Positions 29,173 through 35,941 of a stretch of DNA of 54,661 nucleotides are shown piece by piece (position 1 is the first letter of the stretch; each line of letters begins with the position of its first letter). The translations under genes and the position numbers were made by a program. The notes below the pieces were generated by a model. That model was not told the DNA's origin. It made no database searches and was given only the letters and a program-made list of their open reading frames with translations. Source of the DNA: an uncultured Bacteroidales bacterium (lineage in GTDB: Bacteria; Bacteroidota; Bacteroidia; Bacteroidales; Bacteroidaceae); assembly GCA_902774335.1 (NCBI GenBank), contig CACYHW010000015.1:1-54661 (forward strand), written 5' to 3'.

Positions 29173-29904
29173 ATGAGAAGACGTCTTTACACCATAGTTG
29201 AGCAGGGCCGCGACAACGACTGGGTCAGCTACATATACGATTTCATCATCCTTACCGCCATTACCGCCAGCATAATACCTCTTATGTTTGTCGACACCTA
29301 CCCTGTTTTCGACAAGATAGAAAAGGTAGCCGTGTCGCTCCTGATAGTGGACTATCTGCTGCGCTGGCTTACGGCCGATTACATTGTGGGCAAGGGCAAA
29401 TGGTCGTTCCTGCTCTACCCCTTCACCGGATGGGCCATCATTGATTTCCTGGCCATACTGCCCGGTCTGAACATACTGGGACAGGGATTCAAGATATTCA
29501 GGATATCACGTCTGCTCAGGATTCTCAGGCTCTTCAAGTTTATCCGTTACTCCAAGAACATAAAGATACTGGGCAATGTGATCAAGCGTGAAAAGACCAT
29601 ACTCTTGACCGTACTCGGAATAGCCATATTCTACATATTCATATCGGCCCTGATCATGTTCAACGCCGAGCCGCACATCAACCCCGAAACAGGGCAGGCT
29701 ACCTTCCAGAACTTCTTTGACGCGCTGTACTGGGCCACGGTAACCCTGACCACCGTGGGCTACGGCGACGTTACCCCCGTGACCGACATAGGCAGGCTCA
29801 TAAGTATGGTTTCATCCCTGTTCGGTGTGGCAATCATTGCACTCCCCAGCGGTGTCATAACAGCCGCCTACATAGAGGAGTTGCGCGCCCTGAAGAAGGA
29901 CTGA
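29173..29904 (+). CDS. Voltage-gated K+ channel-like protein (Kv/KvAP type)
   Basis: 243-aa six-helix membrane protein. A basic S4-like segment RISRLLRILRLFKFIRYSK precedes the pore, which has the selectivity filter TTVGYGDVTP. It is predicted to conduct K+ across the inner membrane. A frame opening at 29146 overlaps the promoter and is not used. No cytoplasmic RCK domain is present. Confidence 0.92.
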   Translation: MRRRLYTIVEQGRDNDWVSYIYDFIILTAITASIIPLMFVDTYPVFDKIEKVAVSLLIVDYLLRWLTADYIVGKGKWSFLLYPFTGWAIIDFLAILPGLNILGQGFKIFRISRLLRILRLFKFIRYSKNIKILGNVIKREKTILLTVLGIAIFYIFISALIMFNAEPHINPETGQATFQNFFDALYWATVTLTTVGYGDVTPVTDIGRLISMVSSLFGVAIIALPSGVITAAYIEELRALKKD

Positions 29905-29970
29905 GTACTCAGATCAGAGTATTTTTCAAAAAAAAGCGACTGCAACATTACAACGGAACAAAATGTTATT

Positions 29971-29978
29971 TACCTTTG
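29971..29978 (+). promoter_or_regulatory. Promoter box of the aromatic amino acid operon
   Basis: TACCTTTG followed by CGG. The predicted start near 29982 leaves only about 6 nt before the leader-peptide ATG and about 165 nt before the first structural gene. No convincing -33 TTTG is seen. Confidence 0.7.
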
Positions 29979-29987
29979 CGGCTGAAT

Positions 29988-30047
29988 ATGAAAGCAACCA
30001 GCGCATACTTTTATTACTTTTGGTTTACCAGACAGTTTGCCGGGTAA
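29988..30047 (+). CDS. Aromatic-rich leader peptide of the aro operon (19 aa)
   Basis: The ORF encodes MKATSAYFYYFWFTRQFAG and stop. Seven consecutive codons (30006-30026: TAC TTT TAT TAC TTT TGG TTT) specify Tyr, Phe or Trp, and another Phe follows at 30036-30038. The operon it precedes makes the precursors of exactly these three amino acids. The final codons GCC GGG and the stop carry CCGGG (30040-30044), complementary to the 5' arm of the terminator downstream. This is the composition and placement of an attenuator leader peptide. Translation would begin nearly at the 5' end of the RNA, with no Shine-Dalgarno sequence. Confidence 0.85.
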   Translation: MKATSAYFYYFWFTRQFAG

Positions 30048-30088
30048 TTTGTTGTATGCATACAAATAAGGAATAACAGAGAGCCCGG
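30040..30088 (+). promoter_or_regulatory. Candidate antiterminator of the aro attenuator
   Basis: CCGGG (30040-30044) is exactly complementary to CCCGG (30084-30088), plus a wobble pair T30045-G30083. Between them the palindrome TTGTATGCATACAA (30052-30065) can fold into a short hairpin and bring the partners together. Pairing would remove the 5' arm of the terminator. A ribosome stalled on the aromatic codons leaves CCGGG free; one that reaches the stop codon covers it. Confidence 0.7.
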
Positions 30089-30112
30089 ATCAATGATTCG
30101 GGTTCTTTTGTT
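30078..30112 (+). terminator. Attenuator terminator of the aro operon
   Basis: AGAGCCCGGAT (30080-30090) pairs with ATTCGGGTTCT (30096-30106): 11 bp including two G-U pairs, loop CAATG, followed by TTTTGTT. It lies 31 nt after the leader-peptide stop and 35 nt before the DAHP synthase ATG, inside the transcript from 29971, so it is positioned to attenuate rather than to end an upstream gene. Confidence 0.85.
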
Positions 30113-30146
30113 AATATACGGTTTGAAGAAATAAAAACATAACGAT

Positions 30147-31157
30147 ATGATAGCAGTACTTAAAGCAGGAGTCTCAGAGACTCAAAAGAAAAACCTTATC
30201 AACTGGATCAAAGGCCAGGGCGTAGGCGTACACATCTCGGAAGGTCAGTTCCAGACAGTAATAGGTCTTATCGGCGATACCAGCCGTATCGATCCCGACC
30301 TGCTGAGCGGCCTTGACATCATTGAGAGCGTAACCCGCATCAGCGAGCCCTTCAAGTGTGCCAACCGCCGTTTCCACCCGGCCGATACCGTAGTAGAGAT
30401 AGGTGAGGGTGAGAACAAGGTCAAGATTGGCGGCGGCAACTTTGCCATGATTGCCGGTCCCTGCTCGGTTGAGTCCGAGGAACAGATAACCGATATAGCC
30501 AAGGCCGTCAAGGCATCGGGCGCAACACTGCTTCGCGGCGGCGCATTCAAGCCCCGCACCAGCCCGTATGATTTCCAGGGAATGGGTGCCGACGGTCTGG
30601 AACTGCTGCGCAAGGCACGTAAGGCTACCGGCCTGCCAATCGTCACCGAGATCATGAGCGAGCGTCACCTGGAACTTTTTGAGGACGTAGACATGCTTCA
30701 GGTAGGCGCACGCAACATGCAGAACTTTGAGCTGCTCAAGGCACTGGGACGTACCCGCAAGCCTATCCTGCTCAAGCGCGGCATAGCCAGCACCATCAAG
30801 GAGTGGCTCATGAGCGCCGAGTATATCATGGCCGGAGGTAATGAGAACATCGTACTGTGCGAGCGCGGTATCCGCAGCTATGACACATACACCCGTAACG
30901 TGCTTGACCTCTCCGCCATACCGGTAGTAAAGGAGCTGTCTCATCTGCCCATCATAGTAGATCCCAGCCATGCCACCGGCAAGTCACGTCTGGTTCCCTC
31001 CATGTCACTCGCTGCAGTGGCTGCCGGCGCCGACGGTCTTATCATCGAGGTACACAACGACCCCATCCACGCTCTCTGCGACGGAGCCCAGTCACTTACT
31101 CCGGAGCAGTTTGATGAGGTTGCAAAGAAGGTAATGGCACTCAAGCAGATTATTTAA
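30147..31157 (+). CDS. aroF: DAHP synthase, type I-beta with N-terminal ferredoxin-like regulatory domain
   Basis: 336 aa. First step of the shikimate pathway: PEP plus erythrose 4-phosphate to DAHP. Residues 1-75 (MIAVLKAGVSETQKKN onward) form the ferredoxin-like domain known for allosteric control in the Thermotoga-type enzyme; the catalytic barrel carries AGPCSVES, LRGGAFKPRTSPYDFQG, KRGIASTIKEWL and DPSHATGK. It heads the six-gene operon behind the aromatic leader. Heptamer repeats begin at its stop codon. Confidence 0.96.
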   Translation: MIAVLKAGVSETQKKNLINWIKGQGVGVHISEGQFQTVIGLIGDTSRIDPDLLSGLDIIESVTRISEPFKCANRRFHPADTVVEIGEGENKVKIGGGNFAMIAGPCSVESEEQITDIAKAVKASGATLLRGGAFKPRTSPYDFQGMGADGLELLRKARKATGLPIVTEIMSERHLELFEDVDMLQVGARNMQNFELLKALGRTRKPILLKRGIASTIKEWLMSAEYIMAGGNENIVLCERGIRSYDTYTRNVLDLSAIPVVKELSHLPIIVDPSHATGKSRLVPSMSLAAVAAGADGLIIEVHNDPIHALCDGAQSLTPEQFDEVAKKVMALKQII

Positions 31158-31199: not shown

Positions 31200-32030
31200 A
31201 TGATTGTAGGAGTAGTTGGACTAGGGTTGATTGGCGGATCGCTGGCCAAGACATATCATGAGGCCGGCTGGACCGTCTACGGTTATGACCTTAACGAGTC
31301 GGTAAGCCGTTTTGCCGAGCTGGAGGGTACGCTCACCGCAGTGCTCGACAACAAGAACATAAAGAAATGTGACCTTATCCATATAGCCGTCACTCCCGAT
31401 GCCGCATGCAACTGGCTCGAGCAGCACGGCTCCGAGATTGCCAAGACCACAATGGTCATTGACGACTGCGGAACCAAGCGCAAGGTGGTGGAGTGCGGCA
31501 TGCGCGTTGCAGCGCAGTACGGATTCACCTATGCCGGCGGACACCCCATGGCAGGAACTCACCTGTCGGGCTACAAGAACTCCCGTGCCACCATGTTCCT
31601 GAACGCATCCATGATCATCGTACCCCCTACACACGATGACATCCTGCTTCTGGACCGTATCAAGAGCCTGCTGGAACCCATGCAGCTCAAGCGCGTGGTG
31701 TTTACATCGGCCAATGACCACGACAGCATGATTGCATTCACCTCGCAGCTGCCCCACGTGGTATCCAACGCCTTCATCAAGAGCCCGTCGGCCCAGCAGC
31801 ACAAGGGCTACAGCGCAGGCAGCTTCCGCGACCTTACACGCGTAGCCTGGTTAAACGAGAATATGTGGACAGAGCTGTTCCTTGAGAACAAGGACAACCT
31901 TCTGCGCGAGATACATACCCTGATAAACAACCTCACACAGTACGCCGATGCCATGGAGGCCGATGACGCCACGGCATTGTGCGCACTGTTACGTGACGGA
32001 CGCATTGCAAAGGAACTTTCAGACAAGTAA
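31200..32030 (+). CDS. tyrA: Prephenate dehydrogenase
   Basis: 276 aa. NAD-dependent oxidative decarboxylation of prephenate on the tyrosine branch. The Rossmann motif GLGLIGGSLA opens the protein; conserved catalytic text GGHPMAGTH and the later GYSAGSFRDLTRVA are present. No ACT domain follows, so feedback by tyrosine must act otherwise, possibly through the leader. The aroB gene starts 2 nt after its stop. Confidence 0.95.
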   Translation: MIVGVVGLGLIGGSLAKTYHEAGWTVYGYDLNESVSRFAELEGTLTAVLDNKNIKKCDLIHIAVTPDAACNWLEQHGSEIAKTTMVIDDCGTKRKVVECGMRVAAQYGFTYAGGHPMAGTHLSGYKNSRATMFLNASMIIVPPTHDDILLLDRIKSLLEPMQLKRVVFTSANDHDSMIAFTSQLPHVVSNAFIKSPSAQQHKGYSAGSFRDLTRVAWLNENMWTELFLENKDNLLREIHTLINNLTQYADAMEADDATALCALLRDGRIAKELSDK

Positions 32031-32032
32031 TT

Positions 32033-33082
32033 ATGACAACCCGAATCACAGTCAAGGCCTCAGGCACATACGACATACTGCTCAGCAAGGGCGGTCTCAG
32101 CCGGATAGGCCAGGCCCTCAAGGAGCGTTTCAAGCCCTGCACCATAGCCATCCTGAGCGACGACAAGGTTTTCCCGCTCTACGGCAAGACAGTAACCCAG
32201 TCGCTTGAAGCAGCCGGATTCAAGACCGTCTGCCACGTTATTCCCAACGGCGAGCAGAGCAAGACCCTTGACAGCGTGACGGGATTCATCAACTGCATGG
32301 TCCAGAGCCAGGTGACCCGCACCGACATGGCGCTGGCACTGGGCGGCGGCGTGATTGGCGACATGGCCGGATTCGCCGCAGCCATCTACCTGCGCGGCAT
32401 CCCCTACATACAGGTACCCACTACCCTGCTGGCAGCCGTCGACTCATCGGTAGGCGGCAAGACAGCCGTGGACATTAGCGCCGGCAAGAACCTGGTGGGC
32501 GCATTCCATCAGCCCGCCCTGGTATACCTTGACACCGACACCCTCTCCACACTCGATCCGTCGGTGCTGCGTGACGGCTTTGCCGAGGTAATCAAATACG
32601 GAGTCATCCTGGACCGCAAGCTCTTTGACACCGTAGCAAAACCGGGCACATTCGACCTCACCGAGGTGATAGCCCGCTGCATAGAGATCAAGCGCGATGT
32701 CGTTGAGGCCGATGAGTTCGACCGCGGAATGCGCGGACTCCTTAACTACGGCCACACATTCGGTCACGCCATCGAGAAGCTGAGCGGATTCACCATAACC
32801 CACGGAAGCGCCGTGGCCCGCGGCATGATCATAGCCGCACAGGTTGCCGCAAAATACGGATTCACAGACTATACCGGACAGATAGCTCAGGTTGTAAAGG
32901 ATTACGGTTTCGAGACCGGAAGCCCCTACTCCGCACAGGAGCTCTACAACGTAATACTGTCCGACAAGAAACGCAGCGGAGGTGACATAACCCTGGTACT
33001 GCCCAAGGAACTTGGCCAGTGCACGCTGGAAAAGATGCCCGCCACACGCGTTCTTGAACTCATGAAAGAGATAGGTTTATGA
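32033..33082 (+). CDS. aroB: 3-dehydroquinate synthase
   Basis: 349 aa. Converts DAHP to 3-dehydroquinate with NAD+ and a metal. Motifs: SDDKVFPLYG, GGGVIGDMAGFAAA, PTTLLAAVDSSVGGKTAVD, KNLVGAFHQP, and the metal ligands in HGSAVARGM and LNYGHTFGHAIE. It overlaps the aroA start by 4 nt (ATGA). Confidence 0.97.
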   Translation: MTTRITVKASGTYDILLSKGGLSRIGQALKERFKPCTIAILSDDKVFPLYGKTVTQSLEAAGFKTVCHVIPNGEQSKTLDSVTGFINCMVQSQVTRTDMALALGGGVIGDMAGFAAAIYLRGIPYIQVPTTLLAAVDSSVGGKTAVDISAGKNLVGAFHQPALVYLDTDTLSTLDPSVLRDGFAEVIKYGVILDRKLFDTVAKPGTFDLTEVIARCIEIKRDVVEADEFDRGMRGLLNYGHTFGHAIEKLSGFTITHGSAVARGMIIAAQVAAKYGFTDYTGQIAQVVKDYGFETGSPYSAQELYNVILSDKKRSGGDITLVLPKELGQCTLEKMPATRVLELMKEIGL

Positions 33083-34341
33083 TAGCAACAGTAAAGGGAA
33101 CGCTCCGGGGTGACGTACAGGTACCGCCTTCAAAATCGGTGGCACACCGCATGCTCATATGCGCAGCCCTGACCGGCACTCCCTGCTCCATAACCTGCCA
33201 CAGCATCAACAAGGACATGGAGGCAACTGCCAATTGCCTTAATGCCCTGGGTGCAAACATCACATATACGAACGGCAAGTTTAACGTAGAGCCTATATAT
33301 AACGTTCGCACCGGGTCCGTTCTGGACTGCGGAGAGAGCGGATCCACCCTGCGTTTTATGCTCCCTGTTGCCGCTGCACTGGGTGCTGACGCCGTTTTTA
33401 CAGGCCACGGCCGTCTGCCTGAGCGCCCCCTTTCACCCCTGTACGAGGAGATGACGGCGCACGGAATCCGCATGTCGGAGAACGGCCGTATGCCCCTGAC
33501 CTGTCAGGGCACGCTGCCCGCCGGAACATACACCATCGACGGTGGCGTATCGTCACAGTTCATATCGGGACTGCTCATGGCTCTGCCCCTGACGGGCAGC
33601 GAGAGCCGCATCATAATAACCGGCAAGATGGAGAGCGCCTCATACATAGGCCTTACCCTGAATGCCCTGGCCGCTTTCGGCATAACCATACAGACCGTCA
33701 AGGACGGCTATATCATTCCCGGCGGACAGAAGTTCAAGGCACCCGGCACAACCGTGGATGTCGAGGGCGACTGGTCGGCCGCAGCCTTCTGGCTGGTAGC
33801 AGGCGCCGCAGGCCCGGATGCCATACGCTGCAACGGCGTGGATTATCAGGCATCGGCACAGGGTGACCGCCGCGTAGTGGACATACTGCGCCAGATGGGG
33901 GCCGATATCGAAACGGGTTCTGGCTATGTCACAGCCCGTCCTTCGGCACTCAAGGCCGCAATTGTGGACTGCGCCGACGTACCCGATCTGGTACCCGTTC
34001 TGTCGGTTGCCGCATCACGTGCGCAGGGCGCTACCACATTTGACAACACCCGTCGCCTTCGCATCAAGGAGAGCGACCGCATTCAGTCCGTACTGGATAT
34101 GCTTCACGCCGCAGGAATAGAGGCCAACGCCACGGAAAACACTCTTTCCGTTACGGGTGGTGCCGGACATGACTGTATCTGCAATCCCGCCGGCGATCAC
34201 CGCATGGCTATGTCGGCCGCAATACTGGCTGCTGTTCATGACTGCAGCATACGTATTGAGGATGCCGAATGTACCGCCAAGTCCTATCCGGCTTTCTTTG
34301 AGCACTATTCGCAACTCGGCGCACAGGTTTCACAGGAATAA
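33079..34341 (+). CDS. aroA: 5-enolpyruvylshikimate-3-phosphate synthase
   Basis: 420 aa. Joins PEP to shikimate 3-phosphate. Typical text: PPSKSVAHRMLICAAL (shikimate/PEP contacts), LDCGESGSTLRFMLPVAAAL, GRLPERPLSPL, GGVSSQFISGLLMALPL and DHRMAMSAAILA. Translationally coupled to aroB by a 4-nt overlap. The next gene starts 16 nt downstream. Confidence 0.97.
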   Translation: MIATVKGTLRGDVQVPPSKSVAHRMLICAALTGTPCSITCHSINKDMEATANCLNALGANITYTNGKFNVEPIYNVRTGSVLDCGESGSTLRFMLPVAAALGADAVFTGHGRLPERPLSPLYEEMTAHGIRMSENGRMPLTCQGTLPAGTYTIDGGVSSQFISGLLMALPLTGSESRIIITGKMESASYIGLTLNALAAFGITIQTVKDGYIIPGGQKFKAPGTTVDVEGDWSAAAFWLVAGAAGPDAIRCNGVDYQASAQGDRRVVDILRQMGADIETGSGYVTARPSALKAAIVDCADVPDLVPVLSVAASRAQGATTFDNTRRLRIKESDRIQSVLDMLHAAGIEANATENTLSVTGGAGHDCICNPAGDHRMAMSAAILAAVHDCSIRIEDAECTAKSYPAFFEHYSQLGAQVSQE

Positions 34342-34357
34342 AAACTTTACAAACCAT

Positions 34358-35500
34358 ATGGAACTTTCAGACTACAGAAAACAGATTGACTCGATTGATG
34401 ACGACATTTGCCGCCTCTTCCAGAAGAGAATGGAAGTGGTTAACGCCATAGGCGAGTTCAAAAGAGAAAATGAGATACCGGTAAACGCAAGTTCACGCGA
34501 GCGTGAGGTTCTGGCACGCATCTCCAAACAGCTGCCCGAGAACCTTGAGGGTTTCGGACGAGTCCTCTACCGCTCCATCTTTGACGTGAGCAAGGCCTAC
34601 GAGGCTATGTACAAGGAAAAGGATTCACCCCTGTACAAGGCTCTGTCCAACCTTATCAACGCCGATCCCGCACCCTTCCCCAACCGCGCCGTGGTAGCCT
34701 GCCAGGGACGTGAGGGCGCATACTCGCAGATTGCCGCCGAAAAGCTGTTCGAGGTACCCGAGATCATGTTCAACAACACCTTTGAGGGTGTTATCCGCAT
34801 GGTCACCGACGGTCTGTGCGAATACGGCATACTTCCCATTGAGAACTCAACCGCAGGTTCGGTGAACGAGATCTACGACCTGCTCATTAAATACAACGTA
34901 CACATCGTACGAAGCACACGCGTGCGCGTAGACCATCAGCTGCTGGCTGCCAAGGGTGCCAAGCTCAAGGACATCAAGACCATCTACTCACATCCGCAGG
35001 CCATCAACCAGTGCTCACACTACCTGAGCAACCTCAAGGGTGTGGAGATTATCCCGTTCGACAATACCGCCATGGCTGCACAGCGCGTATCAAAGGACGC
35101 CACCCGTACATCGGCCTCCATATCTTCAAAGAGCTGTATTGACCTCTATAACATGGAGGTTCTGGCACAGGATATCCAGAACTTTGACAGCAACCACACA
35201 CGCTTTATCTGCATAGCCAAGGATGCCCGCATCTATCCGGGTGCCAACCGCACAAGTATCATGATGGTGGTCAGCCATAAGCCCGGTACTCTGTTCAGCG
35301 TCCTGTCCAAGTTCAACGCCACCGGCGCCAACCTGGTCAAGCTGGAGAGCCGTCCCATCCCCGGACGTGACTTTGAGTTCATGTTCTACTTTGACATCGA
35401 GCTCTCCATCTACGACAAGAAGTTCGCATCGCTCATAAGCGAGCTGGACCACTGCGGCGAGCAGTTCAAGTACTTTGGTACATATCAGGAGATTATCTAA
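34358..35500 (+). CDS. pheA: Bifunctional chorismate mutase/prephenate dehydratase (P-protein)
   Basis: 380 aa. Residues 1-90 are an AroQ-type chorismate mutase (YRKQIDSIDDDICRLFQKRM); about 110-290 a prephenate dehydratase (GREGAYSQIAAEKLF, PIENSTAGSVNEIYDLL, HTRFICIAKD with the catalytic TRF); the end is an ACT domain with the Phe-binding ESRP (KLESRPIPGRDFEF). Phe should therefore inhibit it directly. The frame is open from 34157, but that part lies inside aroA; MELSDYRK at 34358 is the natural start. Confidence 0.96.
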   Translation: MELSDYRKQIDSIDDDICRLFQKRMEVVNAIGEFKRENEIPVNASSREREVLARISKQLPENLEGFGRVLYRSIFDVSKAYEAMYKEKDSPLYKALSNLINADPAPFPNRAVVACQGREGAYSQIAAEKLFEVPEIMFNNTFEGVIRMVTDGLCEYGILPIENSTAGSVNEIYDLLIKYNVHIVRSTRVRVDHQLLAAKGAKLKDIKTIYSHPQAINQCSHYLSNLKGVEIIPFDNTAMAAQRVSKDATRTSASISSKSCIDLYNMEVLAQDIQNFDSNHTRFICIAKDARIYPGANRTSIMMVVSHKPGTLFSVLSKFNATGANLVKLESRPIPGRDFEFMFYFDIELSIYDKKFASLISELDHCGEQFKYFGTYQEII

Positions 35501-35509
35501 ATTTGGGGC

Positions 35510-35941
35510 ATGAAAAATATATTGGTAATCAACGGTCCCAACCTCAACATGCTCGGATTGCGTGAGCCTGCCATTTACGGCAGCCGCGATTTCAAGGCTC
35601 TGCTGGCGTTCATCCAGGAGAGCGCACAGCAGCTGGGTCTTGAGGTTGAATGCTTCCAGCACAACCACGAGGGCGCCATTGTGGACAAGATCCAGCAGGC
35701 ATACGGTGTTTTTGACGGCATTGTGATCAACCCCGCAGCCTACACCCACACAAGCGTAGCCATCCTGGATGCACTCAAGGCAGTCTCCATCCCCACCGTG
35801 GAGGTCCATATTAGCGACGTGGACTCACGCGAGGATTTCCGTCAGCGCTCATTCGTGTCACTCTATGCCGAAAAGGTTATCAAAGGACACGGATTTGACG
35901 GCTACAAGGAGGCTTTGGAGTATCTTGCGGCAAAAAAATAA
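35510..35941 (+). CDS. aroQ: Type II 3-dehydroquinate dehydratase
   Basis: 143 aa. Dehydrates 3-dehydroquinate in the shikimate pathway. Motifs NGPNLNMLGLREPAIYG, QHNHEGAIVDKIQ (active site lid), INPAAYTHTSVAILDAL and EVHISDVDSREDFR are complete. It is the last gene of the aro operon. The operon lacks aroE, aroK and aroC, which must be elsewhere. Confidence 0.97.
   Translation: MKNILVINGPNLNMLGLREPAIYGSRDFKALLAFIQESAQQLGLEVECFQHNHEGAIVDKIQQAYGVFDGIVINPAAYTHTSVAILDALKAVSIPTVEVHISDVDSREDFRQRSFVSLYAEKVIKGHGFDGYKEALEYLAAKK

Follow-up and report, generated by a model that had tools for sequence, protein, structure and literature searches.

A probable Tyr/Phe-sensing attenuator ahead of a Clostridia-like aro operon in a genus of Bacteroidales

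What controls a six-gene aro operon whose first gene resembles those of Clostridia, in a genome that belongs to the Bacteroidota? The question is raised by a window of 54,661 nt (the whole stretch of DNA analysed) from an uncultured Bacteroidales bacterium, in which a 19-codon ORF lies ~100 nt upstream of such an operon (Table 1). Attenuation is textbook biology in Proteobacteria; in Bacteroidota it has so far rested on a few computational notes. Our analysis indicates that the ORF very probably belongs to a ribosome-mediated attenuator sensing charged Tyr- and Phe-tRNA, a leader that we infer to be of the native pheA type and to have come to stand before an operon acquired from a Clostridia-like donor.

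Table 1. Leader, promoter and operon features, with positions in the window.
Feature	Position	Strand	Basis
Predicted -7 promoter box TACCTTTG (TAnnTTTG)	29971..29978	+	sequence; 22/22 genus loci
Leader peptide ORF MKATSAYFYYFWFTRQFAG and stop	29988..30047	+	sequence read directly; kept in 22/22 genus loci
Segment 1 outer arm GCATAC, pairing with 30054-30059	30003..30008	+	MFE fold, consensus fold
Sensing codons Y F Y Y F W F	30006..30026	+	sequence; Trp codon in 18/22 genus leaders
Segment 1 inner arm TTTACC, pairing with GGGTAA 30042-30047	30024..30029	+	consensus fold of 22 leaders
Segment 2, antiterminator 5' arm CCGGGT, overlapping leader stop codon	30040..30045	+	duplex against shuffles
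Segment 2 outer arm GTATGC	30054..30059	+	MFE fold, consensus fold of 22 leaders
Terminator 5' arm (segment 3) GAGCCCGGA	30081..30089	+	folds, consensus fold, sequence
Antiterminator 3' arm GCCCGG (core of segment 3)	30083..30088	+	duplex, folds
Terminator 3' arm (segment 4) TTCGGGTTC	30097..30105	+	folds, consensus fold, sequence
U-rich terminator tail TCTTTTGTT	30104..30112	+	sequence
DAHP synthase, first structural gene, clostridial-type	30147..31157	+	NCBIfam NF006421 and TIGR01361 above cut-off; relatives; tree
Prephenate dehydrogenase (tyrA)	31200..32030	+	best NCBIfam matches, below curated cut-off
3-Dehydroquinate synthase (aroB)	32033..33082	+	TIGR01357 above cut-off
EPSP synthase (aroA)	33079..34341	+	TIGR01356 above cut-off
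Chorismate mutase/prephenate dehydratase (pheA), non-native type	34358..35500	+	start taken at MELSDY; best NCBIfam match prephenate dehydratase, 210 bits against a cut-off of 219
Type II 3-dehydroquinate dehydratase (aroQ)	35510..35941	+	TIGR01088 above cut-off

Leader, terminator and competing helices

Codons 7-13 of the leader read TAC TTT TAT TAC TTT TGG TTT, and this direct reading bears out the initial annotation of a 19-codon ORF in which Tyr, Phe or Trp codons occupy seven adjacent positions. Among 3,000 dinucleotide shuffles of positions 29905-30146, none contained an ATG ORF of 8-45 aa with at least 7 aromatics per 9 residues and 5 reached 6 per 9, while in the window, both strands included, the leader is the sole ATG ORF of that length with at least 6/9. 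The terminator lies within the 99 nt that separate the leader stop from the DAHP synthase start, at the coordinates already annotated. Both the terminator region (30060-30115; -22.4 kcal/mol, z = -6.21) and the entire leader (29985-30115; -39 kcal/mol, z = -4.59) were predicted to fold stably.

The earlier description lacked the antiterminator (30040-30045/30083-30088) that competes with the terminator at 30081-30105. Its CCGGGT arm, contained in GCC GGG TAA at the end of the ORF (two sense codons, then the stop), is complementary to GCCCGG in the terminator 5' arm, and the predicted duplex (-17.9 kcal/mol) was equalled in stability by 0 of 200 shuffles. Counting identical sequences once, here as in the segment-swap and local-similarity comparisons, we found the segment 2:3 duplex matched or beaten by 0 of 100 shuffles in the window and by at most 5 of 100 in 18 of 19 distinct genus leaders; for leader L021 the figure was 20 of 100. 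Pairing between sets was specific, with genus segment 2 binding its own segment 3 at -12.7 kcal/mol versus -7.2 kcal/mol for segment 3 of the family. Segments swapped within one set paired nearly as well as their own (family, -13.9 versus -15.1), and the own pairing was among the best 10% of swaps in 33 of 95 leaders.

A protector hairpin, the least tested part of the anatomy, can form in the models from GCATAC/GTATGC and TTTACC/GGGTAA, which vary little in the genus. The outer pairs are retained in the consensus fold of 22 leaders, with two of six changed on both sides in one sequence, and are not clearly paired in the family alignment. The evidence for this arm is weaker than for segments 2-4. 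The inner arm is almost invariant among the 22 leaders, which means that covariation is no test of it, and the single-sequence fold pairs the TTTACC stretch partly otherwise than the consensus fold. On sequence grounds, the marks of a trp-type attenuator are present: a codon-enriched short ORF, a terminator before the first structural gene and an antiterminator that uses the terminator 5' arm and reaches back into the end of the ORF.

In the mechanism that we propose, a ribosome would load at once on a transcript that would begin only a few nucleotides ahead of the leader AUG. With Tyr/Phe scarce, the ribosome would stall in codons 7-13 and mask segment 1, leaving CCGGGU (30040-30045) free to pair with GCCCGG (30083-30088), and RNA polymerase would read into the aro operon. 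With Tyr/Phe plentiful, the ribosome would reach the stop codon inside segment 2 and cover that segment, segment 3 would pair with segment 4 and transcription would end near 30110. We prefer this classical mechanism because a ribosome in codons 7-13 frees CCGGGT and one at the stop covers it.

To our knowledge, Bacteroidota ribosomes make no use of Shine-Dalgarno sites, and a Shine-Dalgarno-like tetramer was found within 20 nt upstream of 0 of 22 genus leaders. From the TTTG of the promoter box to the leader ATG there are 8 nt at 20 genus loci and 9 nt in the window; at L019 (genome G015) the distance is 39 nt and includes an inverted repeat (GGTGCCTGAA/TTCAGGCACC). A passage of PMC9723704 places TAnnTTTG at -12 to -5, from which we predict a start near 29983 and a 5' UTR of about 4-5 nt. 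This makes it testable how ribosomes can load fast enough for attenuation without Shine-Dalgarno initiation. The gap in family pheA leaders spans 19-34 nt in a first set (30/30) and 8-48 nt in a second (25 of 27 with a box); the 8-nt gap recurs in L293, L245 and L261 and is thus characteristic of the genus without being confined to it.

Sensing of all three aromatic amino acids, as initially annotated, did not hold up. Four of 22 genus leaders (L019, L021, L022 and L023) have another codon in place of the single TGG, Trp occurs in 2 of 57 family pheA leaders versus 15 of 27 from other families, and the window genome (G000) has a separate FWWWR leader. We propose that most genus leaders would also read Trp-tRNA, at one codon. 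The FWWWR leader ORF (MIMTANFWWWRNSGFKKS; L324, G000:C1:99694-99826) scores 42.8 bits against the Bacteroid-trp model (cut-off, 49) and precedes a 402-aa ORF that we take to be trpB.

Related leaders in the genus and before pheA

The window DAHP synthase is present at 80-100% identity in 22 of 37 genomes of the genus, that of the window included (two of the 22 have a second copy, and the operon of G019 ends at a contig end), and leader and hairpin occur at all 22 loci having the gene and its upstream DNA. Alignment of related leaders had been suggested as a check, and it came out as anticipated: all 22 loci retain the aromatic run and the hairpin, and the N-terminus of the peptide varies (KATS, KAIN, RSFN, RTVN, NNNS, TAEV).

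Using model R1, built on the 22 genus leaders, we obtained weak matches elsewhere in the family. Aromatic leaders accounted for 14 of the 19 best, and in 13 cases the leader stood before native pheA. Four others were plain terminators and were rejected (L124, L131, L134 and L139), and L133 was left out as a short locus. When pheA loci were picked regardless of leader, a leader with at least 6/9 aromatics was found in 30/30 and 27/30 family loci and in 27/30 from other families, as against 0, 0 and 1 of 90 shuffled loci, and the antiterminator beat 95 of 100 shuffles in 28/28, 25/25 and 21/24 leaders, respectively. The family loci are 60 of 65 native-type matches from 71 of the 91 genomes with a match, and the other five were already known via their leaders; the other-family set is the best-scoring 30 of 107 genomes with a match, which places the far end of the phylum outside the sample. 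Of the three family misses, G087 and G105 have an aminotransferase-DAHP synthase operon that begins with the leader, and G073 has a match to model R2 (built on family pheA leaders) with the ATG start absent.

Compensatory changes were found in both competing helices. Across 44 family pheA leaders, 20 cells of the antiterminator changed on both sides (8.8 in shuffles) and 21 of the terminator (10.8 in shuffles), with 0 of 500 shuffles as high in either case, and one segment-3 base (column 154) co-varies with the bases that it pairs with in segment 2 and in segment 4 (AU/GC 21/15, UA/CG 19/14). Judged by these comparisons, the window leader is a member of a conserved Bacteroidota family of putative Tyr/Phe attenuators, and the initial reading of a ribosome-stalling attenuator of the aro operon gains comparative support, with aromatic run and hairpin conserved and a competing antiterminator present. 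With such a putative attenuator recurring upstream of pheA throughout the phylum sample, and its competing helices changing in pairs, Tyr/Phe attenuation can be put to the test in genetically tractable species.

Origin of the operon and of its leader

Clostridia proteins (best 80 of 574) share 65-78% identity with the window DAHP synthase, same-phylum homologues 47-61%. In a tree of 137 rows, the genus (22 rows) and its sister genus g21 (7 rows) fall inside a Clostridia-dominated clade (108 rows, support 100), apart from 29 same-phylum homologues. They adjoin clostridial rows L033 and L061 with a support of 88-94, below the 95 mark, in a quick tree with long branches flagged. The six-gene order is identical in g21 (one genome examined), and an aromatic leader of at least 5/9 precedes 0 of its 7 DAHP synthase copies; a search of six g21 loci with R2 gave no match. 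In one g21 genome (G212) the imported DAHP synthase gene occurs twice, side by side (L316/L317). The pheA product of the operon is 32% identical to native Bacteroidota PheA, and native-type PheA was found in 0 of 37 genus genomes (best identity, 33%). Because DAHP synthase clusters with Clostridia, g21 is without the leader and native-type pheA is missing, a native attenuator was probably placed before the imported Clostridia-like operon, and the genus leader seems to control an operon acquired from such bacteria. Leader loss in g21 is equally as parsimonious as gain in the window genus.

That equality leaves room for an alternative, which we consider unlikely, in which the attenuator is real but arrived with the clostridial operon, converged on or merely resembles Bacteroidota leaders and was lost in g21. 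Clostridial operon relatives do have such leaders: at least 5/9 aromatics occur in 64 of 78 (13 of 390 shuffles), and a terminator is present in 66 of 78 and located after the leader in 60 of 61. This clostridial set comprises 78 of 79 loci, L089 having been dropped with <150 nt upstream, and includes one Treponema MAG (L036). Row L032 was also left out, as a duplicate of G027. Model R2 fails to separate the two origins, giving 49.9, 43.6, 43.2 and 41.2 bits for clostridial leaders L067, L051, L059 and L033 and 26.0-44.7 for 20 window-genus leaders (loci compared: 20/22 genus, 6/7 g21, 33/78 clostridial and 22/30 other-family), and the L033 leader aligns with the window leader at a score of 36.

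Other comparisons favour the native set. The segment 2:3 helix is strong (at most 5 of 100 shuffles as good) in only 11 of 62 clostridial leaders, versus 18 of 19 in the genus. Model R1 reaches at least 25 bits in 40 of 87 pheA loci (of 90; 87 were compared) versus 4 of 78 clostridial-set loci. Local similarity of leader L002 after the aromatic run averages 25.5 to family pheA leaders (shuffled, 17.8), with 29 of 52 above the shuffled 95th percentile, and 20.1 to clostridial leaders (shuffled, 16.8), with 12 of 62 above it; genus leader L021 has no strong likeness to either set. Shine-Dalgarno-like tetramers stand ahead of 45 of 64 clostridial leaders, unlike those of the genus, although they would be lost anyway after a transfer. 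We clearly favour re-use of a native leader over co-transfer. If true, the window would illustrate how a horizontally gained operon is brought under an amino-acid sensor already resident in its host, with the leaderless sister genus as a natural control.

The clostridial leaders (L033-L111) are of interest in themselves. These Tyr/Phe-rich ORFs (aromatic residues: F 293, Y 267, W 5), accompanied by terminators, lie about 150-270 nt before DAHP synthase, and the 20 loci scanned gave no Rfam match. They are possibly an undescribed attenuator group with an antiterminator that is weaker or built differently.

Explanations that dispense with attenuation by a leader peptide are far less probable. 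A metabolite or tRNA riboswitch, T-box-like or new, might account for the conserved nucleotides inside the leader (for example, TTTACCAGAC), but these fall in the predicted pairing arms, and Tyr/Phe codon identity is retained while leader nucleotides and lengths differ. The window has no Rfam family at gathering score, a search up to E 1 around the leader (locus L116) gave no relevant match, T-box or other, and T-box RF00230 was absent at gathering score from the window and from the 20 of 79 clostridial-set loci scanned; we regard this explanation as very improbable. A potassium-channel-like gene on the same strand ends at 29904, and the hairpin could in principle be its ordinary 3' terminator and the aromatic ORF a product of chance. 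The channel gene was found at none of the 21 other genus loci within the 0.5-1.5 kb of upstream DNA covered, so leader and hairpin go with the operon and not with the preceding gene; with the shuffled sequences falling short of the aromatic run and the antiterminator conserved, we reject this account. It is scarcely credible, finally, that the leader chiefly boosts DAHP synthase translation by reinitiation, a role proposed in a passage of PMC4833913 for short leader genes near a structural gene, or that its peptide is itself functional, since the 99-nt spacing includes a terminator and lies outside the 11-14 bp Bacteroidetes peak given there, and the N-terminal residues drift.

Known attenuators and further aromatic leaders

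The initial annotation knew of no established attenuator of this type in Bacteroidota, a statement that cannot stand: Rfam contains Bacteroid-trp (RF01692), and passages of PMC9723704 name a pheA 5' element. This 2021 study of Flavobacterium psychrophilum describes, in those passages, a structured 5' element upstream of pheA that is expressed and conserved in other Flavobacteriaceae genera, and strong signs that leader peptides act in attenuation ahead of amino-acid operons. The element, known by description only, belongs to another operon and family than the window, and is probably of the same kind as the pheA leaders found here. Bacteroid-trp appears in Table 1 of Weinberg 2010 (PMC2864571). 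Like the window leader it combines a leader ORF with a terminator in Bacteroidota, with Trp codons in place of Tyr/Phe; it had no match in the window, nor at E up to 1 in L116. We take it to be a Trp leader, in agreement with the FWWWR ORFs found here.

The E. coli trp and pheA leaders (RF00513 and RF01859) likewise have a short ORF of regulatory codons, a terminator and a mutually exclusive antiterminator, whereas the window has a very short predicted 5' UTR and no Shine-Dalgarno-like site. Against Phe_leader (RF01859), the best native relative was family pheA leader L129 (37.8 bits, E = 0.0081, below the gathering score of 55), and Phe_leader had no match in L116 at E up to 1. In Acholeplasma, the uORFC-13-1 motif upstream of aroF has a leader with Phe codon(s) and a terminator, according to a passage of PMC8632094; likened by description only, it precedes a DAHP synthase gene as here, in another phylum. 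Short ORFs reminiscent of leader peptides are mentioned for B. thetaiotaomicron in a passage of PMC7366714. A full-text search of open PubMed Central gave, among the matches listed, no paper on the leader of the window operon; a 2010 attenuation survey (Lopatovskaya) fell outside its scope. The kind of attenuator is thus already known in the phylum, and what looks new is its evolutionary setting, an imported operon. Leaderless polycysteine short-ORF attenuators have reportedly been described in mycobacteria (by Canestrari, in 2020); there the ORF is at or near the transcript 5' end, as predicted here, with Cys codons and in another phylum.

Other matches to model R2 were poly-Tyr leaders such as SYYYYYYRT, which together with terminators lie ahead of paaK, of genes for an ACT protein and an SSF symporter, and of a gene that we presume to be iorA-like. 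Such loci (L332-L343) were seen in G001, G008, G018, G024, G022, G021, G023, G020, G004, G014, G010 and G016. A poly-Tyr leader is present in 11 of 30 paaK loci, namely in 8 of 9 genomes without the imported operon versus 3 of 21 with it, a contrast that, the genomes being related, is a pattern and no independent test. Three further operon-less genomes with a poly-Tyr paaK leader were found via the leader itself. G000 (L360) is among the operon-bearing genomes, in which paaK is mostly without this leader. The idea that aro-operon and paaK genomes form two metabolic groups proved wrong, as paaK occurs in 37 of 37 genus genomes and only the leader differs. Nor did we retain the idea that native DAHP synthase regulation is missing in operon-less genomes: a 36-40% identical DAHP synthase in 20 genus genomes is without an aromatic leader (0 of 20, in 2-6 kb of sequence).

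Taken with the preferred reading of leader re-use, these patterns allow a more tentative scenario, which we hold to be possible though somewhat doubtful. In this rumen-associated Bacteroidales genus, a native pheA-type attenuator would have been re-used on the six genes of a clostridial aro operon, which would have taken the place of the native Phe/Tyr genes, the paaK arylacetate salvage operon would have given up its poly-Tyr attenuator, and initiation would be near-leaderless. The whole would amount to a regulator swap after horizontal operon replacement.

Two further leaders were observed. In G023:C2 (L319), a Tyr-rich leader (MFDARYYRYYYYRCFENGRS) with a terminator precedes a different, 28-29% identical chorismate mutase/prephenate dehydratase gene. 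At L318 (G232:C51:20700-29500), a Phe/Tyr leader (MYTIFFSFFFFYFSNKVKREFVCVQE) stands before four genes whose products we take to be porin-like, thioesterase-like, PaaK-like and ACT-like.
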